Shown: piece after piece, positions 6,266 to 24,775 of the stretch | How positions within the stretch are numbered: the first letter of the stretch is position 1 | Layout of the letters: the number at the start of each line of letters is the position of its first letter | Assembly (NCBI RefSeq): GCF_900258045.1 | Contig: NZ_OGVD01000001.1 | Coordinates: 539,001-603,000, forward strand | DNA length: 64,000 bases | Direction of reading: 5' to 3' | Source of the DNA: Sphingorhabdus sp. EL138 | GTDB lineage: Bacteria; Pseudomonadota; Alphaproteobacteria; Sphingomonadales; Sphingomonadaceae | Notes under the pieces: model-generated | What the model saw: only the letters and a program-made list of their open reading frames with translations | The model's database searches: none | What the model was told of the DNA's origin: nothing | Translations under genes and position numbers: made by a program

Positions 6266-7596
6266 CAATCCACCAGATCATCCGGCAGCATCGGCTCGCT
6301 GAGCAGTTTTTCCATAGCCTTCCAGCGCCATACCGGAGCATCACCCTGCTTCTCGACCCAGGCCTTAACCATATCCTGGCCAAGGCCATAGTTGATCACA
6401 TAGCTGCGATACTGATCATTAAATGACAGGGATTGTTCCGCCCGTTCGCGGCTAACCAGTTGGTATTTCTGGATCAGGGCCAGTGCTTCCGCGCGGGTAA
6501 CAGTCTTGTCGAGATAGGCTTGTGCGATGACAAAACGTGCACCTTTCAGCTCGCTCAGCGCCTGTTGCAGCTTGAAATAATCCGCCGCCGTAGCGGGATC
6601 GAGGCCAGCCAACGGGTAAAGCACATCGCGCTCAAAGGTAAGACGCTCCTCGCCCGGAAAAGCCAGATCAATGCCGTAATTGGCCGAACCCTCGGCAATG
6701 AGCGATTGCGGCGAGTAGAGCGGGTAAACCGAAAATTCCTGCCAGCCCCGTTCGCGCGTCAGGCGTTGTTCGAGCAACATGTTATAGACGTGATGGCCGG
6801 GATAACCTTCGTGACAGCCCAGATCGACGGCGCGGCTGATCCGGATCGGCAGGTCTGTGTTGATCTGGATCAGGCTCTGAAAATTGCCCTGATAATAGTT
6901 ATAGCCACTCCAGCTTTTACCAGTGACAAATTCCATTTTGAAATTTTCGTCGGCTGGTAAGGCGATATGCACTGCGGTCCGGCGTTTGCATTCCGCAATC
7001 GCGGCATCGAAAACCGGCTTCAGGCGGTCGGTCGGAATGGTGAATCGCTCTTGATAGGCTTCGACCCGCTCATGCAGCGGTCCATCCCCCGGAACTAGCG
7101 CCTCGATCTTCGCCAAAGCCGCATCATAACTGTTTAAAGGCTGAAATTCTGGTGTGACTCCGAAAAGGCCCTTGGCTTCTTTTGCGAAGGGGAAAACTTC
7201 CCCCTGCATCATGGCATGCCGGGTTAGAGCCGCTTCAAGCTGCGCAGACAAAAAGCGTTTACGCGCTTCGACCAGAGCATCGTCGCTGGCGGGCAGTGCA
7301 TCGAGCCGCAGCATCAGATCCACTATCCCGTTGCCCAATTCCCGCATATCGCGAGGCTGCGCTTTCGCTGCCGCTGCCCAATCCGCAGGACCATAATAGG
7401 CATCGACATAACCCGCTTCCTGCTCGCCCAATTCCAGGGTGAGTTGGACATAGTCCCTTGCGATATTGTCCAGGGCAGTGCTGCGTTCAACCTTCTCTGT
7501 CGCCACGTCAGCAGCGGGTGAGACTGTATTTTGCGGCGCTGCGCAGCTGCACAGCAACAGCATCAAGGCAAGGCCGATCTTGCCTCGAAATGCCAT
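6265..7596 (-). CDS. DUF885 family lipoprotein, putative metallopeptidase
   Basis: 443 residues. The N-terminus is a lipoprotein signal (MAFRGKIGLALMLLLCSC, lipid Cys about residue 18), so the protein is probably anchored in the periplasm or outer membrane. The DUF885 core holds HEGYPGHH at 262-269, the zinc-binding-like motif of this family, preceded by DLPIRISRAVDLGC; further on, LIAEGSANY supplies a likely third metal ligand (Glu). Substrate unknown. The ATG shares one base with the TAA of nhaA (TAATG), so the two genes are translationally coupled, with nhaA first. Confidence 0.87.
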   Translation of the reverse strand: MAFRGKIGLALMLLLCSCAAPQNTVSPAADVATEKVERSTALDNIARDYVQLTLELGEQEAGYVDAYYGPADWAAAAKAQPRDMRELGNGIVDLMLRLDALPASDDALVEARKRFLSAQLEAALTRHAMMQGEVFPFAKEAKGLFGVTPEFQPLNSYDAALAKIEALVPGDGPLHERVEAYQERFTIPTDRLKPVFDAAIAECKRRTAVHIALPADENFKMEFVTGKSWSGYNYYQGNFQSLIQINTDLPIRISRAVDLGCHEGYPGHHVYNMLLEQRLTRERGWQEFSVYPLYSPQSLIAEGSANYGIDLAFPGEERLTFERDVLYPLAGLDPATAADYFKLQQALSELKGARFVIAQAYLDKTVTRAEALALIQKYQLVSRERAEQSLSFNDQYRSYVINYGLGQDMVKAWVEKQGDAPVWRWKAMEKLLSEPMLPDDLVD

Positions 7597-8843
7597 TATG
7601 CCGCTTTGGCCGGTTCAGCCGCCAGCTCGTCTTCATCGGCTGTCTGTTGCGGCGCAAAGCGCAGGATACAAAAGCCGACAACCGCAGATAGGAACGAGCC
7701 CATCAATACGCCAATCTTGGCTTCTTCAATCAACAGCGCTTCGCCCGGGAAGGCAAGCGCACCTATGAAAAGGCTCATGGTGAAACCAATACCGCAGAGC
7801 ATGGAAACGCCATAGACCTGCAGCCATGTCGCCCCGCCCAGGCGCTGCGCAAAACCTGTTTTTACCGCAATCCAGACACTGGCAAAAATACCGACCTGCT
7901 TGCCCAGGAACAAACCAGCGGCAATGCCAAGCGGCAATGGCGCAAATATCTGCTCCACGCCCAAGCCTTCGAGTGATACACCGGCATTGGCAAAACCGAA
8001 TATTGGTACGATTAGAAACGCGCTCCAGGGCGCGATTCCATGTTCCAGTCTGTGTAGTGGGGAGTCTTCTGCATCGGGCGAACCCGGCGTCACGACAATT
8101 GGTATCGCCATCGCCGCCAGCACGCCAGCAATGGTCGCATGTACGCCGGACAGCAAAACTGCAAACCAGAGCAATAGAGCGAAAAACAGATAGGCTATCA
8201 GTGATTTTACACCGGCCTTGTTCATTGTATACATGATACCCAATATCACTGCCGAAGCGAGCAAGGCTGCGCCGTTGATTTCCGCCGTATAGACCAGAGC
8301 GATAATGGCGACGGCACCCATATCATCAACAATTGCAACAGTGACCAGGAACAGCTTGAGCGACGTCGGCGCCCGGGGTCCAAGCAGTGCCAGCACGCCA
8401 ATGGCAAAGGCAATATCTGTTGCCGCCGGTATCGCCCAGCCATTGTAGAGTTCCGGCATGTCGCGGACGATGGCGAGATAAATCAAAGCCGGAACCACCA
8501 TACCGGCCGCAGCCGCGAGCACCGGCAGGCGCCGTCGCTCCCAGGTGTTCAGCCTGCCATCGACAAATTCACGTTTGATTTCAAGGCCAACCAGCAGGAA
8601 GAATATCGCCATCAATCCGTCATTAATCCACAGATGCGGCGTCATCGGCCCGAGTTTTTTGGATAGCACTGGTCCCTTCAACTCATGCAGGAAATGATGG
8701 TACATGTCATAAAGCGGGCTGTTCGCAACAATCATCGCCAGCGCTGCAGCGAACATCAGCAATATGCCGCCCGCTGCTTCGCTTTCCAAAAAATTACGCA
8801 GCGCAGAATCAGTTCCTGTTCGCGCTTGTTTCTCAGAGGACAT
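7596..8843 (-). CDS. nhaA: Na+/H+ antiporter NhaA
   Basis: 415 residues and about 11-12 transmembrane segments. Exchanges internal Na+ for external protons for pH and sodium homeostasis. The essential paired aspartates appear in VTVAIVDDMGAVAIIALVYT; other NhaA hallmarks are PAATDIAFAIGVLALLG and the late GIGFTMSLFIGALAF. An AAAGG-type RBS precedes the ATG. The C-terminal tail after the last helix is acidic. It is the first gene of a two-gene operon with the DUF885 lipoprotein. A sodium antiporter fits a marine or brackish sphingomonad. Confidence 0.96.
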   Translation of the reverse strand: MSSEKQARTGTDSALRNFLESEAAGGILLMFAAALAMIVANSPLYDMYHHFLHELKGPVLSKKLGPMTPHLWINDGLMAIFFLLVGLEIKREFVDGRLNTWERRRLPVLAAAAGMVVPALIYLAIVRDMPELYNGWAIPAATDIAFAIGVLALLGPRAPTSLKLFLVTVAIVDDMGAVAIIALVYTAEINGAALLASAVILGIMYTMNKAGVKSLIAYLFFALLLWFAVLLSGVHATIAGVLAAMAIPIVVTPGSPDAEDSPLHRLEHGIAPWSAFLIVPIFGFANAGVSLEGLGVEQIFAPLPLGIAAGLFLGKQVGIFASVWIAVKTGFAQRLGGATWLQVYGVSMLCGIGFTMSLFIGALAFPGEALLIEEAKIGVLMGSFLSAVVGFCILRFAPQQTADEDELAAEPAKAA

Positions 8844-16792: not shown

Positions 16793-16809
16793 TGGTGGAC
16801 AGGATAGGA
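16793..16809 (+). repeat. attL: 17-bp direct repeat of the tRNA-Tyr 3' end
   Basis: TGGTGGACAGGATAGGA is identical to 24690-24706, the last 17 bases of the tRNA-Tyr gene including CCA (read as complement). The flanks differ on both sides. A matching copy at each end of an integrase-bearing segment is the signature of tRNA-targeted integration. Confidence 0.9.
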
Positions 16810-16868
16810 CTAGCTGAGACGCCATCCAACCTATTGATTATTAGGCGTTATTTATTCGTAACTGATTT

Positions 16869-16889
16869 GCGTGTACTATACGCGTGTAC
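16869..16889. repeat. Two GCGTGTAC direct repeats inside attL (candidate integrase arm sites)
   Basis: GCGTGTAC occurs at 16869-16876 and 16882-16889, 13 bases apart, starting 60 bases inside the attL core. CGTGTA also lies in the palindrome at 24612-24627, at nearly the same distance inside attR. Integrase arm-type binding sites are expected at such positions; the assignment is inference. Confidence 0.4.
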
Positions 16890-17094
16890 CAGATAAAGCA
16901 AGCGCAATGGGTCGCACATGATGATGCAAAAATACCCACTGTACTGTTGTTGCTTTCACTGTTGAAACCATCGGTTAATTCCCAGTGTCTAATACGGATA
17001 AGGGCGTTTGGGCACTATGCAGTATCATGGGTGGCATCTTCGACCGAGAGTAACCGTATGTCCCCAATATCCCGAAAGCGGACGCTAGAAAGTC

Positions 17095-17565
17095 CTACTC
17101 AAACATCAGTAGAATTTTATTTGCGTTCGCAGTTTTCTTTTTGCGCGCCTCACCCCATGCGCACAGCGCTTCACCGTACACAGCCTTGCTACTCTCCCAA
17201 TCACATCCCGGCACGTTCCAAGTAGGCGCAATCGGCTCATTTTCCCGAGTATAAACAGAACTATAAAACTTGTATTTTACGACCTTTTCCAAGCCTGGAA
17301 TTCGGTCCATTTCTGTTTGACTAGCTATCCTAGTAGTGCATTCCGCTGTGATTGCACTGAGTGGCGTTGCTCTCTGCTTAGGGTTTTCGATAGTCCGCCC
17401 TTGCTGGTCCCTTGGAAGAATCAAATCTAAATCATTGATGCTATAAAGCGATATTGGCTTTCTATTGTCCCGATCCAATAAACCGATAGTTACTGCCCAG
17501 CCTCGGTCCCGATCAACCACTGGCTCGAAACTACTTTTTGCAAAATTTTCTGCAACAAATGTCAC
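17095..17565 (-). CDS. Hypothetical protein of the integrated element
   Basis: 156 residues, not recognised. Start GTG at 17565 with GAGGG seven bases upstream. No signal peptide or membrane helix. Visible features: FEPVVDRDRGWAVTIGLLD near the N-terminus, three cysteines (AECTT, PGCDWES, ALCAWGE), and a basic C-terminus (EARKKKTANANK). Composition is that of a folded soluble protein. It is the gene nearest attL, transcribed toward that end, a common place for cargo. No function is proposed. Confidence 0.6.
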   Translation of the reverse strand: MTFVAENFAKSSFEPVVDRDRGWAVTIGLLDRDNRKPISLYSINDLDLILPRDQQGRTIENPKQRATPLSAITAECTTRIASQTEMDRIPGLEKVVKYKFYSSVYTRENEPIAPTWNVPGCDWESSKAVYGEALCAWGEARKKKTANANKILLMFE

Positions 17566-17701
17566 AATGATACCCTCTATTTATGTCCGTAATATCCGGT
17601 GGTTTCAACCGGTCGATGCAACACTTTAATCTTTTGAGAGAAGATGGAGTGTTGAAGATGAAGCATAGGAAGCGGACATTAGCATTTAGATACAGAGTTT
17701 C

Positions 17702-18130
17702 TTATTTCTCAGATTTATTCATGTCACCGGCATAGCAAGGATACATCCTTGCAAAAGCGATGAAGAGAGACACACCGAACTGCTGATTTCGACGACGTTC
17801 AGGAACCCTGTCTTCGACATAGCCGAGAAACACCCGCCTAGCTTGCTGGATAGTCAACTTTTCAGGCAAACACACCATACGTGGTAGTTGTACTCCTTGC
17901 CTAGATAGGAAGTTAGAGGTCATCATCTCCGTTGATTGAAACCCATTCAGCCATCCGATTAGCGAGCTACCACAAGCAAGTTGATGATCAGGCTGTTCCG
18001 ACTTGCACCAGTCCACCAGCTTGGCAATCGAAACAGATTTTGTGGGTTGAGTGATCTCGGTTGCGGTTACAGCTTGGCAGGCCGACACAGCATAAAACAC
18101 GGCAAGAAACCGGATGAGAAACGTTTTCAT
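17702..18130 (-). CDS. Rap1a/Tai-like secreted immunity-family protein
   Basis: 142 residues from the ATG preceded by GGAA. A signal peptide (residues 1-24, ending in the VTATE region) points to the periplasm. The mature part has the Rap1a/Tai pattern: LVDWCKSE, ACGSSLIGWLNGF, a VCLPEKLTIQQARRVFLGYVE block and a terminal FARMYPC, with conserved cysteines likely forming disulfides. In Serratia, Rap1a proteins protect against T6SS peptidoglycan amidase effectors; many solitary homologues exist. No effector gene adjoins it. Family membership is moderately sure; the immunity role is inferred. Confidence 0.65.
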   Translation of the reverse strand: MKTFLIRFLAVFYAVSACQAVTATEITQPTKSVSIAKLVDWCKSEQPDHQLACGSSLIGWLNGFQSTEMMTSNFLSRQGVQLPRMVCLPEKLTIQQARRVFLGYVEDRVPERRRNQQFGVSLFIAFARMYPCYAGDMNKSEK

Positions 18131-18435
18131 TTGGATTTCCATTACTTGATACGATAATTCGGATGAGCAAAGACAGCCAACTTGTCAAGACAACTCAATT
18201 TGTCAGCTTTCTACTTCTAACGTCCACAGATGCGCCCTTAGCGGACGCTAACACACCGTTTGGCTTAGCCGTATGCTCTACGGCCTAAAAATGATGGAGA
18301 TAGGCGAAGGGGCAACTCCGATCAGGCGTGGCCCGGATTTCCCCCATACCTCCAGCCGATGACTACAAAAAGCCGTTGACAATACCTTATAAAATTGCCT
18401 AACGAACTATAGGCATTTTTATAAGGAGCCTGATT
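18131..18435. other. Divergent promoter region between the Rap1a-like gene and the serine recombinase
   Basis: 305 bases. A TTGACA hexamer (18376-18381) and the imperfect 15-bp inverted repeat (18387-18424) lie just before the recombinase; one AGCGGACGCTA motif lies at 18240. Nothing else recognisable. Confidence 0.5.
18376..18428 (+). promoter_or_regulatory. Promoter and operator-like inverted repeat of the serine recombinase
   Basis: TTGACA (18376-18381) is a consensus -35 box. TTATAAAATTGCCTA (18387-18401) and TAGGCATTTTTATAA (18410-18424) form a 15-bp inverted repeat with one mismatch and an eight-base centre, covering the expected -10 region and touching the RBS AAGGAG (18423-18428). 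It may be an operator or a recombinase-binding site. Confidence 0.55.
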
Positions 18436-19146
18436 ATGTGCCGTGTCATTGCATACTACCGCGTCTCAACTGAGGAACAGAACCGCTCTGGCCTTGGCTT
18501 AGCAGCGCAGCAGCAAGCCGTTCAATCTCTCTGCGAGGGGAGAGGGTGGGAGATTATTGCTGAGCATACAGAGGTGGAGAGTGGCAAACGTTCTGACCGG
18601 CCCGCCCTTACTGATGCAATGAGCCATGCGAAGGTAACTGGGGCTGTGCTAGTGGTAGCCAAGCTGGACCGCCTGAGCCGCTCGGTAGCTTTTCTGTCTG
18701 CTCTACAGGACAGCGGAGCCAAGTTCATTGCAGCAGATATGCCAGAGGCAAATGAGTTGACAGTGCATATCATGGCAGCCGTTGCTCAAGCAGAGCGTAA
18801 GGCTATCGGTCGGAGAACAAAGGAAGCATTAGAAGCAGCAAAGGCTCGCGGTACTTGGACTAAAGCGGACGGCACACCCTATAAATCTGGCAAGCGGCTC
18901 GGCAACCCGAACGGCGCTGCTGCACTAAGACGGGCTGGAAAGGGCAATACGGATGCTGTTGCCGTACTCCGAAGTGACGCGGACAAGTTTGCTCAGGAAC
19001 TTGCCCCAGTGATCGACGATATACGTTCCGCTGGGCATGGTTCCCTGCCTGCTATAGCCAGCGCACTTAACGACCGCCATATTCAAACGAGACGTGGGGG
19101 CAAATGGCATCCGACGAGCGTTAAAAACCTGCTGGCTAGGCTGTGA
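18436..19146 (+). CDS. Serine recombinase (resolvase/invertase family)
   Basis: 236 residues. N-terminal catalytic domain 3-140: IAYYRVSTEEQ places the nucleophile Ser at residue 11, followed by QQQAV, LVVAKLDRLSRSVAFL and MAAVAQAERKAIGRRTKEAL, the standard resolvase sequence. A basic middle (SGKRLGNPNG) leads into a C-terminal DNA-binding segment (ALNDRHIQTRRGGKWHPTSV) resembling the HTH of recombinase-domain proteins. Too short for a large phage serine integrase. RBS AAGGAG seven bases upstream. It may act in DNA inversion, resolution or cargo capture in this element; its site is unknown. Confidence 0.9.
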   Translation: MCRVIAYYRVSTEEQNRSGLGLAAQQQAVQSLCEGRGWEIIAEHTEVESGKRSDRPALTDAMSHAKVTGAVLVVAKLDRLSRSVAFLSALQDSGAKFIAADMPEANELTVHIMAAVAQAERKAIGRRTKEALEAAKARGTWTKADGTPYKSGKRLGNPNGAAALRRAGKGNTDAVAVLRSDADKFAQELAPVIDDIRSAGHGSLPAIASALNDRHIQTRRGGKWHPTSVKNLLARL

Positions 19147-19541
19147 CAGACGAATTGATACCATCTAGCACATAGAACATTTCCAACGCTTGAGGAGGGC
19201 GATGGCTTGGCCTTTCCGTCGCTGCTGAGGGGAATTGTAAGAACGACAAATTTCCCGGTTTCTCGATGTCATTTGAATTGATACCATCACACATACAGAT
19301 GAACTGATACCATCATACACAGAAGCATATTCTTCTTAAACCGATGCCAGTCTAGTCAGCAGATCACCTCTGCGAATTTCTTGTCTTGGGCAGTCTGCAA
19401 TACCGCATAGCTGGGTGGCTGTAGCGGAGATTGGGCTGGCATCGGCCGGGTACCCCTTACTCAAATCAAACCGCCGCACCCACGCGGCCTATCTATCTAT
19501 AAATTATTGTCACCCCGCCATACACATAAAAGGAAGTCAAC
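19147..19541. other. Repeat-bearing gap ahead of the unknown six-gene operon
   Basis: 395 bases without a gene. Three GAAYTGATACCATC repeats lie in its left half; the right half must hold the promoter of the operon starting at 19542. A C-rich stretch and an AT-rich TATCTATCTATAAATTATTG (19488-19507) precede the RBS. Confidence 0.55.
19152..19314 (+). repeat. Three iteron-like repeats, GAAYTGATACCATC
   Basis: GAATTGATACCATC at 19152-19165 and 19275-19288, and GAACTGATACCATC at 19301-19314. The last two are spaced 26 bases start to start; the first is 123 bases away. All have the same orientation. TGATAC is also the half-site of the perfect palindrome at the integrase start (24612-24627). Candidate binding sites for an element-encoded protein. 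Confidence 0.6.
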
Positions 19542-19871
19542 ATGATTGATGATACAGAAATAACCAAACGGCTTAGCCACCCCGGCGTAGCTGAATATTA
19601 TACCGGCAACGGACACCGCATAGCAGCGTTCCGCGCTCTGCTTGACCTGTTATCCATCCCGCACCCTGCATGGGCTGCACGGGGCATGAGCGGCTCAGGA
19701 GCAACACGGAGGAACACTATGACCGCATACCACGCCGACAATCCTCAGCCCCGGCTAACTACCCTCCCTGCCCGCAAGGATAACGCTCCCCCTGAAAGGG
19801 TACTGGCTGCGAAAGCCGCAACCGAAGCCCGTTGCAACCCCAGCCTATTTAACCAGACATTCTCACAATAA
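19542..19871 (+). CDS. Hypothetical protein, first gene of the element's operon
   Basis: 109 residues, not recognised. ATG preceded by AAAAGGAAG. The first half is folded-looking (VAEYYTGNGHRIAAFRALLDLLSIPHPAW); the second half is basic and Pro/Ala-rich (LTTLPARKDNAPPERVLAAKAATEARCNP) and probably extended. No membrane segment. It starts a run of six same-strand genes separated by 38 bases or less, or overlapping. No function is proposed. Confidence 0.6.
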   Translation: MIDDTEITKRLSHPGVAEYYTGNGHRIAAFRALLDLLSIPHPAWAARGMSGSGATRRNTMTAYHADNPQPRLTTLPARKDNAPPERVLAAKAATEARCNPSLFNQTFSQ

Positions 19872-19909
19872 TATAAACCGGCGATGATCCCGCCATTAAA
19901 AAGGACATA

Positions 19910-20902
19910 ATGACAGACAACCAACAGGATATGCTGCCAGCAAGCAGTATAGCTGCAATTCAAAAAGCTGGGGCTAATCAAAATACCCCTGCGCTCCACG
20001 ACCAAAGACCGCATTCCCAACGCTTACGAGAAGCAATGTTTAACGGAGCAGTCGCCTCCGCTGCTAAATACAAGCAAGATCATCCCGGTGCTCGTGACCT
20101 TAGAACCCACATCGACACCTTGGCTTACAAACCTAAGCCCGCAGGATATAAAGCTGCATTGGTCGATAGGGTTAGCCAATGGTTCGACAACAGTGGAGCT
20201 CTAGCAGCTACAAACCGCACCGATGTTGATCGGCTGAACGCTCAGTTGCAAACCGATATGTTTAACCCAGACAATCATTTCAGCAAGCCGCTATCCCCTT
20301 CGATCAGGAAAGAGTTAGCAGCCTTGCTCCACAAGCGCGGTGCTGTGCTGCCTGAAACTGCAAAGACGATGTCGGATGTGCGTAAGGCAGTCCGGTCCTA
20401 CAAGGCCAGTAACCAACCGCAAGCAGAGCCATTTGGTCATGCGGGTTGGCGCTCAGCAAATGCCTTGACCATCGGAGGGCGTAGCTATCGAATAGAGGTG
20501 CACAACGGGCAGGAATGTATCCGGGTTACAGCCGGTGGCAAAACGCAGCGGGTAAATCTTACCACTGTTAAGGTGCTGATCGGTGATTTGGTGGAAAGAG
20601 GACCGGGTAGTATCTCTAATATACCTATAACTAGTTATATAGGAGAACTTGTCCCCCGACCGAAAAATACTGATTTGCCCGCCTCATCTCCCATTGCGGG
20701 GACAAGTTCTCCGGGAGAATATCCAGATACCTCTGTTGAGGTGAACACACCGCCCGATAACATTACCGGAATTTGTGACCAAAAGCCCGCAGAGCCAGAG
20801 AAATTGGGGATTACAGAACGTATTGCAGCGCTTCGCAGAGTAATGCCCCCTGTCGCAGATACCCAACACCCCCCGGACGACGATCCTCTCTGCCATCTTT
20901 GA
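19910..20902 (+). CDS. Hypothetical protein, second and largest gene of the element's operon
   Basis: 330 residues, not recognised. RBS AAGGA before the ATG. The N-terminal 190 residues are helical and charged (SQRLREAMFNGAVASAAKYKQDH, ALVDRVSQWFD, LSPSIRKELAALLHKRGAVLP). A compact beta-rich part follows at about 185-230 (LTIGGRSYRIEVHNGQECIRV). The C-terminal third is Pro/Ser/Thr-rich and likely disordered. Two unusual DNA palindromes (20626-20639 and 20642-20712) lie in the codons joining these parts. It could be a DNA-binding or replication-associated protein, but no motif supports that. Confidence 0.65.
   Translation: MTDNQQDMLPASSIAAIQKAGANQNTPALHDQRPHSQRLREAMFNGAVASAAKYKQDHPGARDLRTHIDTLAYKPKPAGYKAALVDRVSQWFDNSGALAATNRTDVDRLNAQLQTDMFNPDNHFSKPLSPSIRKELAALLHKRGAVLPETAKTMSDVRKAVRSYKASNQPQAEPFGHAGWRSANALTIGGRSYRIEVHNGQECIRVTAGGKTQRVNLTTVKVLIGDLVERGPGSISNIPITSYIGELVPRPKNTDLPASSPIAGTSSPGEYPDTSVEVNTPPDNITGICDQKPAEPEKLGITERIAALRRVMPPVADTQHPPDDDPLCHL
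20626..20639. repeat. 14-bp perfect palindrome inside the 330-residue gene
   Basis: TATAACTAGTTATA, AT-rich and exactly self-complementary, sits two bases before the larger inverted repeat at 20642. An AGGAG immediately follows (20641-20645). Such a structure within coding sequence is unlikely by codon use alone. Confidence 0.55.
20642..20712. repeat. 15-bp perfect inverted repeat with 41-base loop inside the 330-residue gene
   Basis: GGAGAACTTGTCCCC (20642-20656) is exactly complementary to GGGGACAAGTTCTCC (20698-20712). It lies where the encoded protein passes from a folded domain into a low-complexity tail. It may be a protein-binding site, an mRNA processing or attenuation hairpin, or a recombination site. 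No T-tract follows. Confidence 0.65.
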
Positions 20903-20915
20903 AAGCATCAACACC

Positions 20916-21284
20916 ATGACAACATTATCGTTGCGCCCTAATAGTATCGGGGACGCGATCATTGCCACGTATGGCTATGCGGACCCGGACAGGGCCGCTG
21001 TAATACAGAACCTAATTGCTCGTTTAGATGATGATGGCGGCCTAGGGGATATTGCCCGGTACTACATCGTTAAGACTGAATACCGGCGCGCTACCCTCCG
21101 CAGCGTTATCAGCACACTAAAACTCAAACGGCCTCTTTGGCTGAATAGGAACCGAGATGCCGCTCAGGCCAATCGCCAGTTCATTGAGGCCACCCACGAA
21201 ACCTATCACGCTTGGCGTAGAAGCCAGAGCAAAACAAATGCCGCCATGCGCGGATCACCCAACCGAAAGACCCCTAATGCCTAA
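20916..21284 (+). CDS. Hypothetical protein, third gene of the element's operon
   Basis: 122 residues, not recognised. Starts 13 bases after the previous stop; no strong RBS, so translation may be coupled. Basic protein: SIGDAIIATYGYADPDRAAVIQ and a helical, arginine-rich middle (YRRATLRSVISTLKLKRPLWL) ending in a lysine/arginine tail. The charge would suit nucleic-acid binding, which is inference only. Its last eight bases overlap the start of the next gene. Confidence 0.6.
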   Translation: MTTLSLRPNSIGDAIIATYGYADPDRAAVIQNLIARLDDDGGLGDIARYYIVKTEYRRATLRSVISTLKLKRPLWLNRNRDAAQANRQFIEATHETYHAWRRSQSKTNAAMRGSPNRKTPNA

Positions 21285-21810
21285 GACTAAAAAATCACCC
21301 GCCTTAAACACAAGAGACCTGGCCAACCGTATTACTAGCATCACACAGGACTTGAATGCGGCCAATGCCGACGTTGCATTATTGCAGCGCCTTAAGGATG
21401 CAGAGGTTAACGCGAAGCGGCTAGAGCGAGAGCTAACAGATATGCAAAAAGATTTGTCTGTTGCACTTGCCGATGAACACGACGCGAAACAGCAAGCCGC
21501 CTTTGCGAACATCCGCAACATGGCAATCACGTCCAGCGCACCTGTTGAAGACCTCAACCCCGGTCTCCTTAAGATGACCTACAAAGTGACCTATGAGACG
21601 CTGTCTTATGATAGCAGCACCCGCCGTAACCTATGGCGAGCAAACTCAGCTCATAGCATCCGTTACCTGCCAGATACCGCGTTAAAATATCTGATCGAAG
21701 CTAAGCCAGAGCTAATCCCGCAGCGCATCATGGACCTTGCACCCGGCAAGCCCGCTGAAGCGATACATCAGTATATCCAAGCTATACGACGGGGATATTT
21801 GTCATCGTAG
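21277..21810 (+). CDS. Hypothetical coiled-coil protein, fourth gene of the element's operon
   Basis: 177 residues from the ATG that overlaps the previous gene by eight bases; a further upstream ATG lies inside that gene and is rejected. Residues about 12-75 are a heptad-like charged helix (DLANRITSITQDL, LLQRLKDAEVNAKRLEREL) predicted to be a coiled coil. The C-terminal half is globular (MTYKVTYETLSYDSSTRRNL, YLPDTALKYLIEAKPELIPQ). No known domain was recognised. Its TAG shares a base with the next start (TAGTG). Confidence 0.62.
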   Translation: MPKTKKSPALNTRDLANRITSITQDLNAANADVALLQRLKDAEVNAKRLERELTDMQKDLSVALADEHDAKQQAAFANIRNMAITSSAPVEDLNPGLLKMTYKVTYETLSYDSSTRRNLWRANSAHSIRYLPDTALKYLIEAKPELIPQRIMDLAPGKPAEAIHQYIQAIRRGYLSS

Positions 21811-22283
21811 TGCGCGCGCAAGGTAAGAAACGTTATAAACCCAAGGGGCAAGGCTACACCGGTATAAACCTTTTTCCCCAGACACTTGATGAGTTGCGCA
21901 ATATGTCTGGAGGGTTCGGAGAGGCGGCAGTAGCTGATGTCCAATGGGGCGCAGTGGCCGCCTGTCTCATGAGTGATAGAAATTTCTCTAACCCGTGGCA
22001 GGTCGTAAGCGTTTCTGTGCAGCATTGCCGTTCAGAAGACCGCTTGCGCCTGCGCTGGCCGGACTACTTGGGCCGTAAACAAACCCGCGCATTCCTCGAC
22101 CTGTCACCGCAATCGAAACGCGAAGCAAGGTTAGTGGGAGCGGAAACGCTTGCTGACTGGAGGGTAGCAGGTTGCCCATATTTAGACAGTGACAGGATCA
22201 AACGAACTTACTTGTACATCCAATCCTGCATACGAAATACCGCCGAGGCGGAACAAAACAACATTAAGGAGAAAGCGGTATGA
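21810..22283 (+). CDS. Hypothetical protein, fifth gene of the element's operon
   Basis: 157 residues, not recognised. GTG start shares one base with the preceding TAG. Very basic N-terminus (GKKRYKPKGQGY), then GFGEAAVADVQWGAVAACLM and a tryptophan/arginine-rich middle (RLRLRWPDYLGRKQTRAFLD). Four cysteines, none in a zinc-ribbon spacing. Its last four bases overlap the next gene as ATGA, showing translational coupling. No function is proposed. Confidence 0.6.
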   Translation: MRAQGKKRYKPKGQGYTGINLFPQTLDELRNMSGGFGEAAVADVQWGAVAACLMSDRNFSNPWQVVSVSVQHCRSEDRLRLRWPDYLGRKQTRAFLDLSPQSKREARLVGAETLADWRVAGCPYLDSDRIKRTYLYIQSCIRNTAEAEQNNIKEKAV

Positions 22284-23056
22284 CCGCACTATCAAACAAG
22301 CAGCGCATCAAAGTGAATGCAGCTCTCGCTATCATTCATGGCCACGGCTTCAATGCCAACATCATCGGCAAGGAGGCGCGGGTAATAATGGGGACCGGGC
22401 ATCCAGCACCGACAGCATACGCAATGGCGCTCAATAACTTTGCTCAAAAACAACCCGGCGTTGGTGGGTCAATCGATAAGGTAACGCGGCTGATTGAAGC
22501 CAGTGACGATGCAACGGTGGCTCAATATGACCAAGCGCTAAACCAGTACATTCAGACCGGCGATGACAGCGGCATATCCGCCCTACAAGATATGATTGTG
22601 GCGGACAGCATGGCACTAGCCATCCGCAACGGAGAAGGCACAGAGGACACGTTAGCGGGGCTTACAATAGATGACGCTCTGGCGGTTTCGCATGATGAAA
22701 TGCAGGACATGGCCGAACCAGCCCCCAACCCGGAACCAGCACCCGTGCCTAATCAGAGTTTTGCATTTAATGCACCCGGACAAGCTACAGTCAAACCGAG
22801 CGCACCGCCTCCTAATGTAACACCAGCACAGGGCGCGCCCATCCCGTCTAGCGATACCGCTGCGCGGGCATCAATGTCAGAACAGCGCGCACGTAGTTGG
22901 GCCGGTGTACCAATTGGAGCAACGCCCGCCCTCAAAACGGCAGAGGGCGGCTACCGATCACCAAAGACAGGTCAGGCATTAGCCCGTGCTATCGGCGTCC
23001 CTCTTGCTTCGGTAGAGGGACAGGCCGCAGCGGCGTCGGAAGCCAGTACCGTATAA
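22280..23056 (+). CDS. Hypothetical Pro-rich protein, last gene of the element's operon
   Basis: 258 residues, not recognised. ATGA overlap with the preceding gene, plus AAGGAG upstream. The helical N-terminal domain (about 1-60, NKQRIKVNAALAIIHGHGFN) could be a small DNA- or protein-binding module. An acidic middle part is followed by a Pro/Ala-rich linker (about 145-195, PAPNPEPAPVPN) and a short C-terminal block, SPKTGQALARAIGVPLASVE. The domain-linker-tail layout resembles adaptor or scaffolding proteins, but that is only a shape argument. Confidence 0.62.
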   Translation: MTALSNKQRIKVNAALAIIHGHGFNANIIGKEARVIMGTGHPAPTAYAMALNNFAQKQPGVGGSIDKVTRLIEASDDATVAQYDQALNQYIQTGDDSGISALQDMIVADSMALAIRNGEGTEDTLAGLTIDDALAVSHDEMQDMAEPAPNPEPAPVPNQSFAFNAPGQATVKPSAPPPNVTPAQGAPIPSSDTAARASMSEQRARSWAGVPIGATPALKTAEGGYRSPKTGQALARAIGVPLASVEGQAAAASEASTV

Positions 23057-23090
23057 GCCGCAGCCTAGGAGCTCTAATACAAAGGGGTTC

Positions 23091-24632
23091 CTAGGCTGGC
23101 TCGAAGGACAGCATAGGATAACGAACCTTGTTGATTGCTTCGAATAGCCGCTGTGCGCTATCACCGGCCCCATAGTTGGCCCCTACTTGGTCAACCGCTT
23201 TGCGACCCGCTAGGTACTGGCCAATAGCTGTTTGGTGCAATTCCGCTTCTCGAAGGGCGTCCTCAAAGTTATGTCTAAGAGCATGAAGCCCTTGCCCCCT
23301 TTGACCAACGCCCAATTTCTTACGATGGCGGCCAAACCAATCACCGAACGCATCGCCCCATATACTTCGCCGGTCGGCGGCCTGCCCTTCAAACAGTAAG
23401 CCATGCGATGACCGCTGCTGCGCAAAGGCAAATAAACCTAGCCGTATTAACTCAGGGTGCAATGCCAACTTTCTTTTAGCATTGCGGTTCTTTACGTCCC
23501 CTGTGACCTCAAACATCATTACATCATTTTGAACCTGAAACTTGGTTGCATCCAGTTGGGCAATCTCTCCCCGGCGTAGACCATGGAATAAGGCTATAAG
23601 CGGACCCCAGTATCGAATAGCCAGCTCATCCTTCAAGGGCGTAGGAGGCGTCCAAGGTTCCGCTGCAAACAGCTTCGTAAGGTCACTATCGCTGTAGGGG
23701 AAACGCTTCTCTGTTTTCCTACCGGCGACCTCAACCGTTAGTCCGTCAAAAACATTGCGCGCCGTCCATTCCTCTTGCACGGCATACCGAAACAGTGCGC
23801 CCCAAAATGACAAATAGCTATCGCGGATTGTCTTGGACGATAGACAGGGCAAGCCCTCTTTTTCAGCCAATGACGCCCGCTCATAGATTGACAAACCTTT
23901 GCCAGCCCATTGAGCAGATGGCTGTCTATGAAGCATTGCTAGGGCCTTTCTAGCGTCATCCCGTGTTATCTGTGGCAGACGCGCGCTCTCGCCCAGAACA
24001 GCGATGAGAAAGGCAAATGCCGTTCCATTGGATTTCTGAGTAGAGCCTTTTTTGTTTGCTACCCGGTGCTCAGTATAGAATGCTATCGCATCGCCAAGGG
24101 TCTTGCCAGCGATACGCTCAGTTCCGGCTCTCACAGTTGCCGTAGCTGCCATAACATCTTCCGCGCGCGCTTCTTTGGCCTCCCTCACAACATCTACCAT
24201 CGCGGCTTCTTCTGGTGTTAGCTCAGCCGTAGATTGGTGCATTCTTTCTTTTAATGCCGCTCTCAAGGGTGCACGGGCTAATCGACGTTCCCGCTGCTTA
24301 GCTTCAAACGCTTCCCGAGCCAGCCTGTCTTCGCGGATACGCGCTGCCTCAGTCAAGCCGGATGGCCCCGTAAGGATTAGCTCAGCTTCGGCAATTTGAC
24401 TATCTAGCTGCGCTCCTAGCTCTGCGTGTTTTGTGCGCGCCTCTACAGGATCACGAGTACCCAGCGATTGCAGCCATTCATTAGCCGGGAATTGAACACC
24501 GTCTACAACTTGACCTTTTAATGCGTCAGGAACGCGGCGACGGTATCTGTATATGCCGCTTGTTTGTCGGAATAGATATTCTGGAAGCTTACCCAAGTTG
24601 TCCTCCGTGGATGATACACGTGTATCAATCAC
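23091..24632 (-). CDS. Tyrosine recombinase (phage-type integrase)
   Basis: 513 residues. The N-terminus, LPEYLFRQTSGIYRYRRRVP, is a DUF6538/arm-binding-like domain. A core-binding SAM-like part lies at about 170-270 and the catalytic domain at about 300-500. Catalytic residues: Arg in FHGLRRGEIAQLD, Lys in VKNRNAKRKLALH, HxxR in LHALRHNF, and Tyr in VGANYGAG. The usual His/Trp before the Tyr appears as Arg (YLAGRKAVD), a deviation. GTG start with GGAG nine bases upstream; the first codons carry a 16-bp palindrome. It lies directly downstream of tRNA-Tyr, whose 3' end is its target. Confidence 0.93.
   Translation of the reverse strand: MIDTRVSSTEDNLGKLPEYLFRQTSGIYRYRRRVPDALKGQVVDGVQFPANEWLQSLGTRDPVEARTKHAELGAQLDSQIAEAELILTGPSGLTEAARIREDRLAREAFEAKQRERRLARAPLRAALKERMHQSTAELTPEEAAMVDVVREAKEARAEDVMAATATVRAGTERIAGKTLGDAIAFYTEHRVANKKGSTQKSNGTAFAFLIAVLGESARLPQITRDDARKALAMLHRQPSAQWAGKGLSIYERASLAEKEGLPCLSSKTIRDSYLSFWGALFRYAVQEEWTARNVFDGLTVEVAGRKTEKRFPYSDSDLTKLFAAEPWTPPTPLKDELAIRYWGPLIALFHGLRRGEIAQLDATKFQVQNDVMMFEVTGDVKNRNAKRKLALHPELIRLGLFAFAQQRSSHGLLFEGQAADRRSIWGDAFGDWFGRHRKKLGVGQRGQGLHALRHNFEDALREAELHQTAIGQYLAGRKAVDQVGANYGAGDSAQRLFEAINKVRYPMLSFEPA
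24612..24627. promoter_or_regulatory. 16-bp perfect palindrome at the integrase start
   Basis: TGATACACGTGTATCA overlaps the first codons of the integrase gene. It may be an autoregulatory operator or an integrase arm site: it is 63-78 bases inside the attR core, mirroring the CGTGTA repeats 60-80 bases inside attL. Its TGATAC half also recurs in the repeats at 19152-19314. Confidence 0.55.
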
Positions 24633-24689
24633 GTCAAAAAACTCCTATTAAATCAATTACCTATAAGCTTTCAAAGGCTTAGTGAGGGC

Positions 24690-24706
24690 TGGTGGACAGG
24701 ATAGGA
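24690..24706 (+). repeat. attR: 17-bp direct repeat within the tRNA-Tyr 3' end
   Basis: Identical to 16793-16809. It covers the complement of CCA, the discriminator, the 3' acceptor strand and the start of the T-arm, so integration leaves a complete tRNA. Confidence 0.9.
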
Positions 24707-24775
24707 TTCGAACCTATGTACGCTTGCGCGGGCAGATTTACAGTCTGCTGCCTTTAACCACTCGGCCACCTGTCC
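24690..24775 (-). tRNA. tRNA-Tyr (GTA)
   Basis: 86 bases including an encoded CCA. Acceptor GGACAGG pairs with CCTGTCC; the anticodon arm CAGACTGTAAATCTG gives anticodon GTA. A long class II variable arm and the T-loop GGTTCGAATCC are present. Its 3' end doubles as attachment site attR of the integrated element; the integrase gene follows on the same strand. Confidence 0.95.

Follow-up and report, generated by a model that had tools for sequence, protein, structure and literature searches.

In a window of 64,000 nucleotides from Sphingorhabdus sp. EL138 (contig NZ_OGVD01000001.1, positions 539,001 to 603,000 of the forward strand), an element of 7.9 kb (positions 16793-24706 of the window) was found integrated in a tRNA-Tyr gene. 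Judged from its sequence, the element is very probably an integrated satellite of lytic T7-like podophages (Autographiviridae) and the representative of a new family. This reading follows from a copy of a phage terminus and from phage-type promoters, both of which lie outside the operon of six genes, g1 to g6, that was the subject of the preliminary description. For these genes four functions had been proposed, namely element maintenance, transfer help, phage-satellite packaging and defence; packaging is the one that is supported, but the parts that decide for it lie outside the coordinates of the operon. The element has its own recombinase and attachment (att) repeats, no genes for a particle of its own were detected with 101 proteins of T7-like phages, Pfam or PHROGs, and the terminus copy, being of the helper type, would provide the means to use helper packaging.

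Copies of a phage terminus and of phage promoters

Shared 15-mers of related elements and phages led to the right ends of Caulobacter phages. A terminus profile of about 83 bp was built from eight phages and included no element sequence; the phage sites had been noticed through the elements L010-L012, and the remaining elements played no part in their discovery. When 252,045 bp were searched with this phage-only profile, each of nine complete elements had a single site, located in every case on the + strand at 78-330 bp ahead of the resolvase gene. Besides the site in the window (Table 1), E values of 2.5e-12 (L011), 4.6e-10 (L010), 1.6e-8 (L012), 1.5e-7 (L014), 1.9e-6 (L015), 2.4e-6 (L018, inside an open reading frame (ORF) called from a distant start) and 4.1e-6 (L019) were obtained, and the next match had an E value of 2.6. 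No terminus was detected with this profile in L013 and L017, which together are one contig-end fragment and were left out of the nine complete elements. The terminal repeat begins within the site in all six phages with annotated repeats (Percy, BL199, KSC, ERS, Lullwater and Quill_5.2). The first 39-41 bases of four of these phage records match the model from position 41-43 onward; therefore, the physical end is placed near model position 41, corresponding to about 18315 in the window. The site of phage AA lies near the left end of its record and that of Scott in a large non-coding gap.

The second signal is a motif around GATACC(A/C/G)TC...CACA, located between the resolvase gene and g1 and present in one to three + strand copies per element. 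In Caulobacter phage Quill_5.2 and Brevundimonas phage AA this motif immediately follows the RNA-polymerase gene, and in Lullwater a variant is found there; further variants occupy this position in Percy, BL199, KSC, ERS and Scott. Phage AA contains five matches, all on the + strand, four of them intergenic and one intragenic. At the motif, 21 bases are identical between the Brevundimonas element (L019) and this phage. The exact pattern occurred in 57 viral contigs. Eight of them matched T7-like phage proteins, each with the motif about 23 bp behind the polymerase match; these metagenomic contigs have 42 bases in common and possibly represent a single lineage. None of 12 tested T7-like phage proteins matched in the other 49 contigs.

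A weight matrix made from six phage sites gave, at 18 bits or more, 11 positions inside the nine elements and 1 outside, and at 12 bits 13 inside and 3 outside, with 154,552 positions scanned inside and 295,778 outside. The threshold of 12 bits was reached in 8 of the 9 elements. In the 3.66-Mb genome the exact pattern TGATACCATCNNNCACA occurred twice, both times in this element; when one mismatch was allowed, 8 occurrences were obtained, 3 of them in this element, and the backward control gave 2. A different stretch, CCCGGCNNGACGTTAAACA, follows the promoter in both L014 (at about 7990-8040) and L018 (at about 7030-7060) and is absent from the phages compared. Two viral contigs have the latter motif, and no terminus was found there.

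As both sites are copied, induction of the element by a helper RNA polymerase and packaging by the helper terminase would be expected. Upon infection by the helper, its RNA polymerase would transcribe from the copied promoters and switch on g1-g6. By analogy with T7, the copied promoters may also prime replication of the excised circle by the helper replisome. The primary origin of T7 lies behind gene 1, and the phage copy of the motif likewise adjoins the polymerase gene. Romano and others, in a 1981 paper cited in PMC5997990, reportedly described that the T7 origin requires T7 RNA polymerase. In L113, a relative of the element, the promoter is followed by some 0.45 kb in which no ORF reaching 60 aa was called, which would fit an origin. 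Stretches of about 0.9-1.1 kb without conserved genes, repeat-rich by eye, were seen between the resolvase gene and g1 in L010 (7480-8595), L011 (7614-8590) and L014 (7736-8614), and here a replication origin is possible. The helper terminase would then recognise and cut the copied terminus and fill helper particles with satellite DNA. Once this DNA has been injected, multimers would be reduced by the resolvase, a task that would suit it, and the monomer would be re-inserted by the integrase.

Structure of the element and its relatives

From attL onward the element consists of two cargo ORFs on the - strand, the terminus, the resolvase gene, about 0.4 kb free of genes, g1-g6, the integrase gene on the - strand and the tRNA-Tyr gene (Table 1). 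The six genes had been placed in the cargo position of a mobile element, which is incorrect: they sit between resolvase and integrase, and the variable cargo lies across the resolvase from them, between attL and the packaging site.

Table 1. Features of the element, in window coordinates
Feature	Position	Strand	Length	Remarks
attL	16793..16809	+	17 bp	copy of the tRNA-Tyr end; exact repeat seen twice in the window and never in 100 shuffled versions
Cargo ORF	17095..17565	-	156 aa	no family found
Cargo ORF	17702..18142	-	146 aa	matches PF18602 (Rap1a immunity proteins) at E 1.1e-8, which passes the curated cut-off
Phage terminus copy	18277..18354	+		profile of eight phage sites only, E 3.2e-8; boundary of the terminal repeat, where the terminase presumably cuts, expected near 18315
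Serine resolvase	18436..19146	+	236 aa	PF00239, E 9.5e-30
T7-like phage promoter, copy 1	19153..19178	+		26.7 bits
T7-like phage promoter, copy 2	19276..19301	+		14.1 bits
T7-like phage promoter, copy 3	19302..19327	+		19.5 bits
g1	19542..19871	+	109 aa	core of the common module
g2	19910..20902	+	330 aa	accessory; L015 has it too, and L110 has part of it
g3	20916..21284	+	122 aa	accessory; also in L015 and L018
g4	21277..21810	+	177 aa	core of the common module; long N-terminal helix and small alpha/beta part
g5	21810..22283	+	157 aa	core of the common module
g6	22280..23056	+	258 aa	core of the common module; N-terminal part helical, linker rich in Pro
Tyrosine integrase with DUF6538	23091..24632	-	513 aa	PF20172, E 2.5e-11; phrog_1 integrase, E 5.2e-22
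tRNA-Tyr (gta), attachment site	24690..24775	-		attR repeat at 24690-24706

The genes g1, g4, g5 and g6 were found in the same order in ten elements, that in the window and L010, L011, L012, L014, L015, L016, L018, L019 and L114, and the hosts of the nine relatives belong to the Sphingomonadaceae and to Brevundimonas; this conservation speaks against a chance arrangement. A search with the single g6 query gave 5 other genomes among 298 of the family, including the weak match L007; a scan of Genome Taxonomy Database (GTDB) contigs with g6 gave 5 loci, among them L017, which is on the contig of L013, and L019 from Brevundimonas nasdae JCM 11415; and a g6 profile detected 10 of 397 family genomes, the window's own included. 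The weak g6 matches L007 and L021 were left out, and L134, the second g6 locus of genome G736, starts at a contig edge. All ten elements have a serine resolvase gene upstream and an integrase gene and a tRNA gene (Tyr, Ala, Ser or Thr) downstream. The resolvases of L010 and L012 were recognised from sequence, and the copy in L012 is split over two frames; resolvases occur throughout the elements but are of different subfamilies. Repeats of the tRNA end were present in 8 of 9 elements (none in L015; only 14 bases in L011) and in 4 of 5 further elements (none in L109). Genome G140 carries two elements, at Ala and Ser tRNA genes, with g6 92% identical and with different resolvases and cargo. In L012 (2339-13090) the resolvase, integrase, g6 and internal virion protein genes are each split by a frame change, and this element looks decayed. 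The idea that element lengths are whole fractions of the helper genome was rejected; the ratios scatter, with the window element at 5.5 for a helper genome of 43.5 kb.

A sequence-only site model, which includes element sites, was run on the 397 family genomes at E <= 0.001. Sites were detected at 17 places in 15 genomes, five of these places being in elements already fetched. Of the remaining 12 places, 9 adjoin a serine resolvase gene, and at 7 the fetched stretch contains a related integrase, whole or as a fragment; L107, also among the 12, belongs to the genome of L015. The promoter matrix reached at least 18 bits at L107, L109, L110, L113 and L115 and 13.5 bits at L118; the promoter of L115 is about 2 kb from the resolvase gene. 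Weak matches in unexpected places were obtained for L108 and L116, and none of 12 bits for L111, L112, L114 and L117. A terminus site was found in 8 of the 10 g6-positive genomes compared with 15 of 397 overall; in two of these eight (G708 and G764) g6 and the site are on different contigs. In G691 a weak site (E 0.0003, 30.5 kb searched) was seen together with a resolvase, promoter and integrase, and in G154 g6 lies at a contig edge. At L109 (G035) the site and a promoter were seen with phage-like genes and a tRNA-His gene nearby, and this is perhaps another type of satellite. Among 385 genomes across the class, under strict filters, the site model matched the window's own genome alone; the family looks concentrated in the Sphingomonadaceae, with L019 as a member seen outside.

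Further elements were thus found by the site search, two of them lacking g1, g4, g5 and g6. One is L113 (2543-10804), from the same genus as the window: its integrase is 96.7% identical to that in the window, and it has the same att sequence, the terminus, the resolvase and a promoter of 32.9 bits. The other, L116, has terminus, resolvase and integrase. L115 has g5 alone of the four genes. The constant part of the family, as read from these sequences, is terminus, resolvase and integrase, with the promoter in most elements, and g1, g4, g5 and g6 are optional; since the sister elements L113 and L116 lack all four, these genes are not strictly required. A co-occurrence of the six genes as one block, which had been proposed as a check, was not observed: g1, g4, g5 and g6 recur together, but g2 and g3 are accessory.

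The cargo of several relatives resembles defence genes and is mostly placed between attL and the terminus. L113 encodes a single protein of 871 aa with HSDR_N, N6_Mtase and Methylase_S, L116 a TIR protein, L114 a PDC-S31 match and L014 an AbiJ_NTD4 protein with DUF7014. A member of the AbiJ_NTD4/DUF7014 family is located near the integrase gene in L018. No PADLOC family matched in the scanned cargo of L010, L011 and L015.

Proteins of the g1-g6 operon

The six overlapping or closely spaced + strand ORFs were present as first described, with gaps of 38 bases (g1-g2) and 13 bases (g2-g3) and overlaps of 8 (g3/g4), 1 (g4/g5) and 4 bases (g5/g6). The products of g3 (pI 10.4), g1 (9.7), g5 (9.5) and g4 (9.3) are basic and that of g6 (4.9) is acidic. 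The statement that none of the proteins belongs to a recognised family also held: searches of Pfam, PHROGs, NCBIfam and PADLOC gave weak matches only, none above a cut-off or at a convincing score (best PADLOC E 0.012). No relatives of g2 and g6 were found by tblastn against phages and plasmids; scans of viral contigs gave nothing for g6 and one weak locus (L009) for g2. Profiles of g1, g4, g5 and g6 gave nothing better than E 0.08 against the 101 proteins, which come from three T7-like phages. In the model of g4 the N-terminal helix comprises residues 12-75 (mean pLDDT 86), and Foldseek found no match of this model in PDB and BFVD at E <= 0.001.

The g6 protein contains 21 Pro among 258 residues; its middle part is unstructured in a model of low confidence (mean pLDDT 50), which was too poor for a fold search. 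A C-terminal peptide is common to about half of the g6 sequences. The predicted layout of helical N-terminal part, linker and C-terminal peptide would suit a scaffold- or virion-associated protein. A short QSFAFN-like stretch in g6 (residues about 152-170) is similar to the N-terminal sequence of the internal virion protein from L012, L018 and the phages AA and Scott. Such SFAF-like stretches are present in some g6 proteins and some phages only and are a lead rather than evidence; a docking motif is possible.

When the 101 phage proteins were compared with 13 elements, the internal virion protein alone occurred, in 2 of the 13; the window lacks it, and none of the RNA polymerase, capsid, portal, tail and terminase proteins tested was present in any of the 13. 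The extra genes belong to phrog_3883 and were found in L018 (E 6.9e-102), directly behind g6, and L012 (E 1.4e-103), whose product is 35% identical to the counterpart in Sphingomonas phage Scott (Autographiviridae). The likeliest role of g1, g4, g5 and g6, sometimes together with this virion protein, would be to adjust helper replication or morphogenesis in favour of the satellite, and the chance of this is about even. A more detailed scheme, in which the promoter would be switch and origin, the terminus the packaging ticket, and g1, g4, g5 and g6 with the optional virion protein would remodel the podophage head or ejection apparatus, is rather unlikely to be right in every part.

As the main alternative, the satellite could carry g1-g6 chiefly as an anti-helper module for interference or defence, and this is a lesser but real possibility. 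Control by a helper promoter would suit a trap, the relatives have defence-like cargo, and transfer may not need g1, g4, g5 and g6, as elements without them exist. Nevertheless, no PADLOC family was assigned to g1-g6 at a convincing score, and the module is the most constant gene set, fixed between resolvase and integrase, whereas the defence-like cargo varies and lies mostly elsewhere. The virion gene directly behind g6 in L018 also argues against a mainly defensive module.

Other explanations and known satellites

The element could alternatively descend from a T7-like prophage that became defective, with most genes lost and only terminus and promoters kept. The two copied signals, the internal virion protein genes in two elements and the site and promoter of L109 near phage-like genes would agree with this. 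However, no other protein of the 101 tested was present, and the elements have a conserved gene order of their own, different tRNA genes and their own integrase and resolvase, unlike the outcome of random decay. A phage RNA polymerase gene with structural genes, by which an Autographiviridae prophage would be recognised, was not found, and a prophage remnant is very improbable. Just as improbable is that the motif behind the resolvase gene is the res site of the resolvase and not a phage promoter. It often lies just downstream of that gene in one to three copies, as a res site might, but the same motif accompanies resolvases of different subfamilies, and in phages it stands behind the RNA-polymerase gene, with no resolvase annotated in AA or in the fetched part of Quill_5.2. 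Moreover, the motif of L115 is remote from the resolvase gene, and L109 has the motif without a matching resolvase. That the integrative element is mobilisable and moves by conjugation, with g1-g6 helping in the transfer, would agree with the integrase in a tRNA gene, the serine resolvase and the small size, but it is hardly credible: library scans of the window gave no relaxase or mobilisation family at a meaningful score (g1 matched VirD2 at E 0.054), g2 and g6 have no plasmid relatives, and the phage terminus and promoters would be left unexplained.

Several observations weigh against the satellite reading itself. The promoter of L014 reaches only 10.7 bits, L114 has none of at least 12 bits, and L116 has none in the expected place. 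The terminus of L016 is weak (E 0.012) and overlaps the end of an ORF. The phage sites came to light via the elements, so that the promoter and terminus matrices are not blind; the independent part of the promoter evidence is the position of the motif behind the polymerase gene. No terminus was detected in the fetched parts of the eight metagenomic phage contigs, which are partial. For the host of the window no helper turned up; Sphingomonas phage Scott shares the terminus, but its promoter is of another variant. Three of the 12 new places (L109, L111 in G117 and L112 in G140) adjoin no matching resolvase or integrase. Finally, the profile and Foldseek searches gave no fold or family that ties g1-g6 to phage proteins.

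Among known satellites, the phage-inducible chromosomal minimalist islands (PICMI) of Vibrionaceae are comparable. In the parts of PMC10803314 considered here they are described as small (about 6-7 kb) integrated satellites of a lytic phage with few genes, a defence gene aboard and packaging that presumably requires neither a capsid nor a terminase gene of their own. They are defined there by int, alpA and prim beside fis; of the three genes the window element has an integrase only, no AlpA or primase match being obtained in the window with Pfam and PHROGs, and it is integrated in tRNA-Tyr instead of beside fis. In the same parts of that paper the authors could not identify packaging sites in the helper, whereas a copied terminus is the main evidence here, and no T7-type promoter is named. 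Phage-inducible chromosomal islands (PICI), capsid-forming PICI (cfPICI), P4-like elements and PICI-like elements (PLE) are likewise integrative elements living on a helper phage, as presented in the parts of PMC11389934 considered.

The hallmark genes of these satellites are terS, ppi, cpm, sid, psu and capsid genes. None of the hallmark genes of PICI, P4-like elements or PLE was detected in the window with Pfam and PHROGs, which are general libraries without family-specific models, and the capsid, portal and terminase genes of cfPICI were absent from it as well. With the Autographiviridae phages Quill_5.2, Lullwater, Percy, BL199, KSC, ERS, AA and Scott the elements share the terminus (8 of 8 phages), with AA and Quill_5.2 the promoter motif (a variant in Lullwater), and in two elements the internal virion protein family. 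These are complete phages of Caulobacter, Brevundimonas and Sphingomonas; the elements, in contrast, carry an integrase, a resolvase and g1-g6, and the remaining phage proteins tested are absent from them. Phage satellites as a kind are known; as far as was searched, the helper group, the copying of both promoter and terminus, and the proteins are new.

Although few viruses are understood as well as T7, the search of open-licence papers gave no satellite of the Autographiviridae, the T7-like group. The search by site finds such satellites without knowledge of their genes and has already worked here. A set of unknown proteins, expressed on the command of a T7-like polymerase, would open up, and induction and packaging would become testable at two small sites. 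If confirmed, the element would extend satellite parasitism to phages that bring their own RNA polymerase, by means of two short signals copied from the helper.

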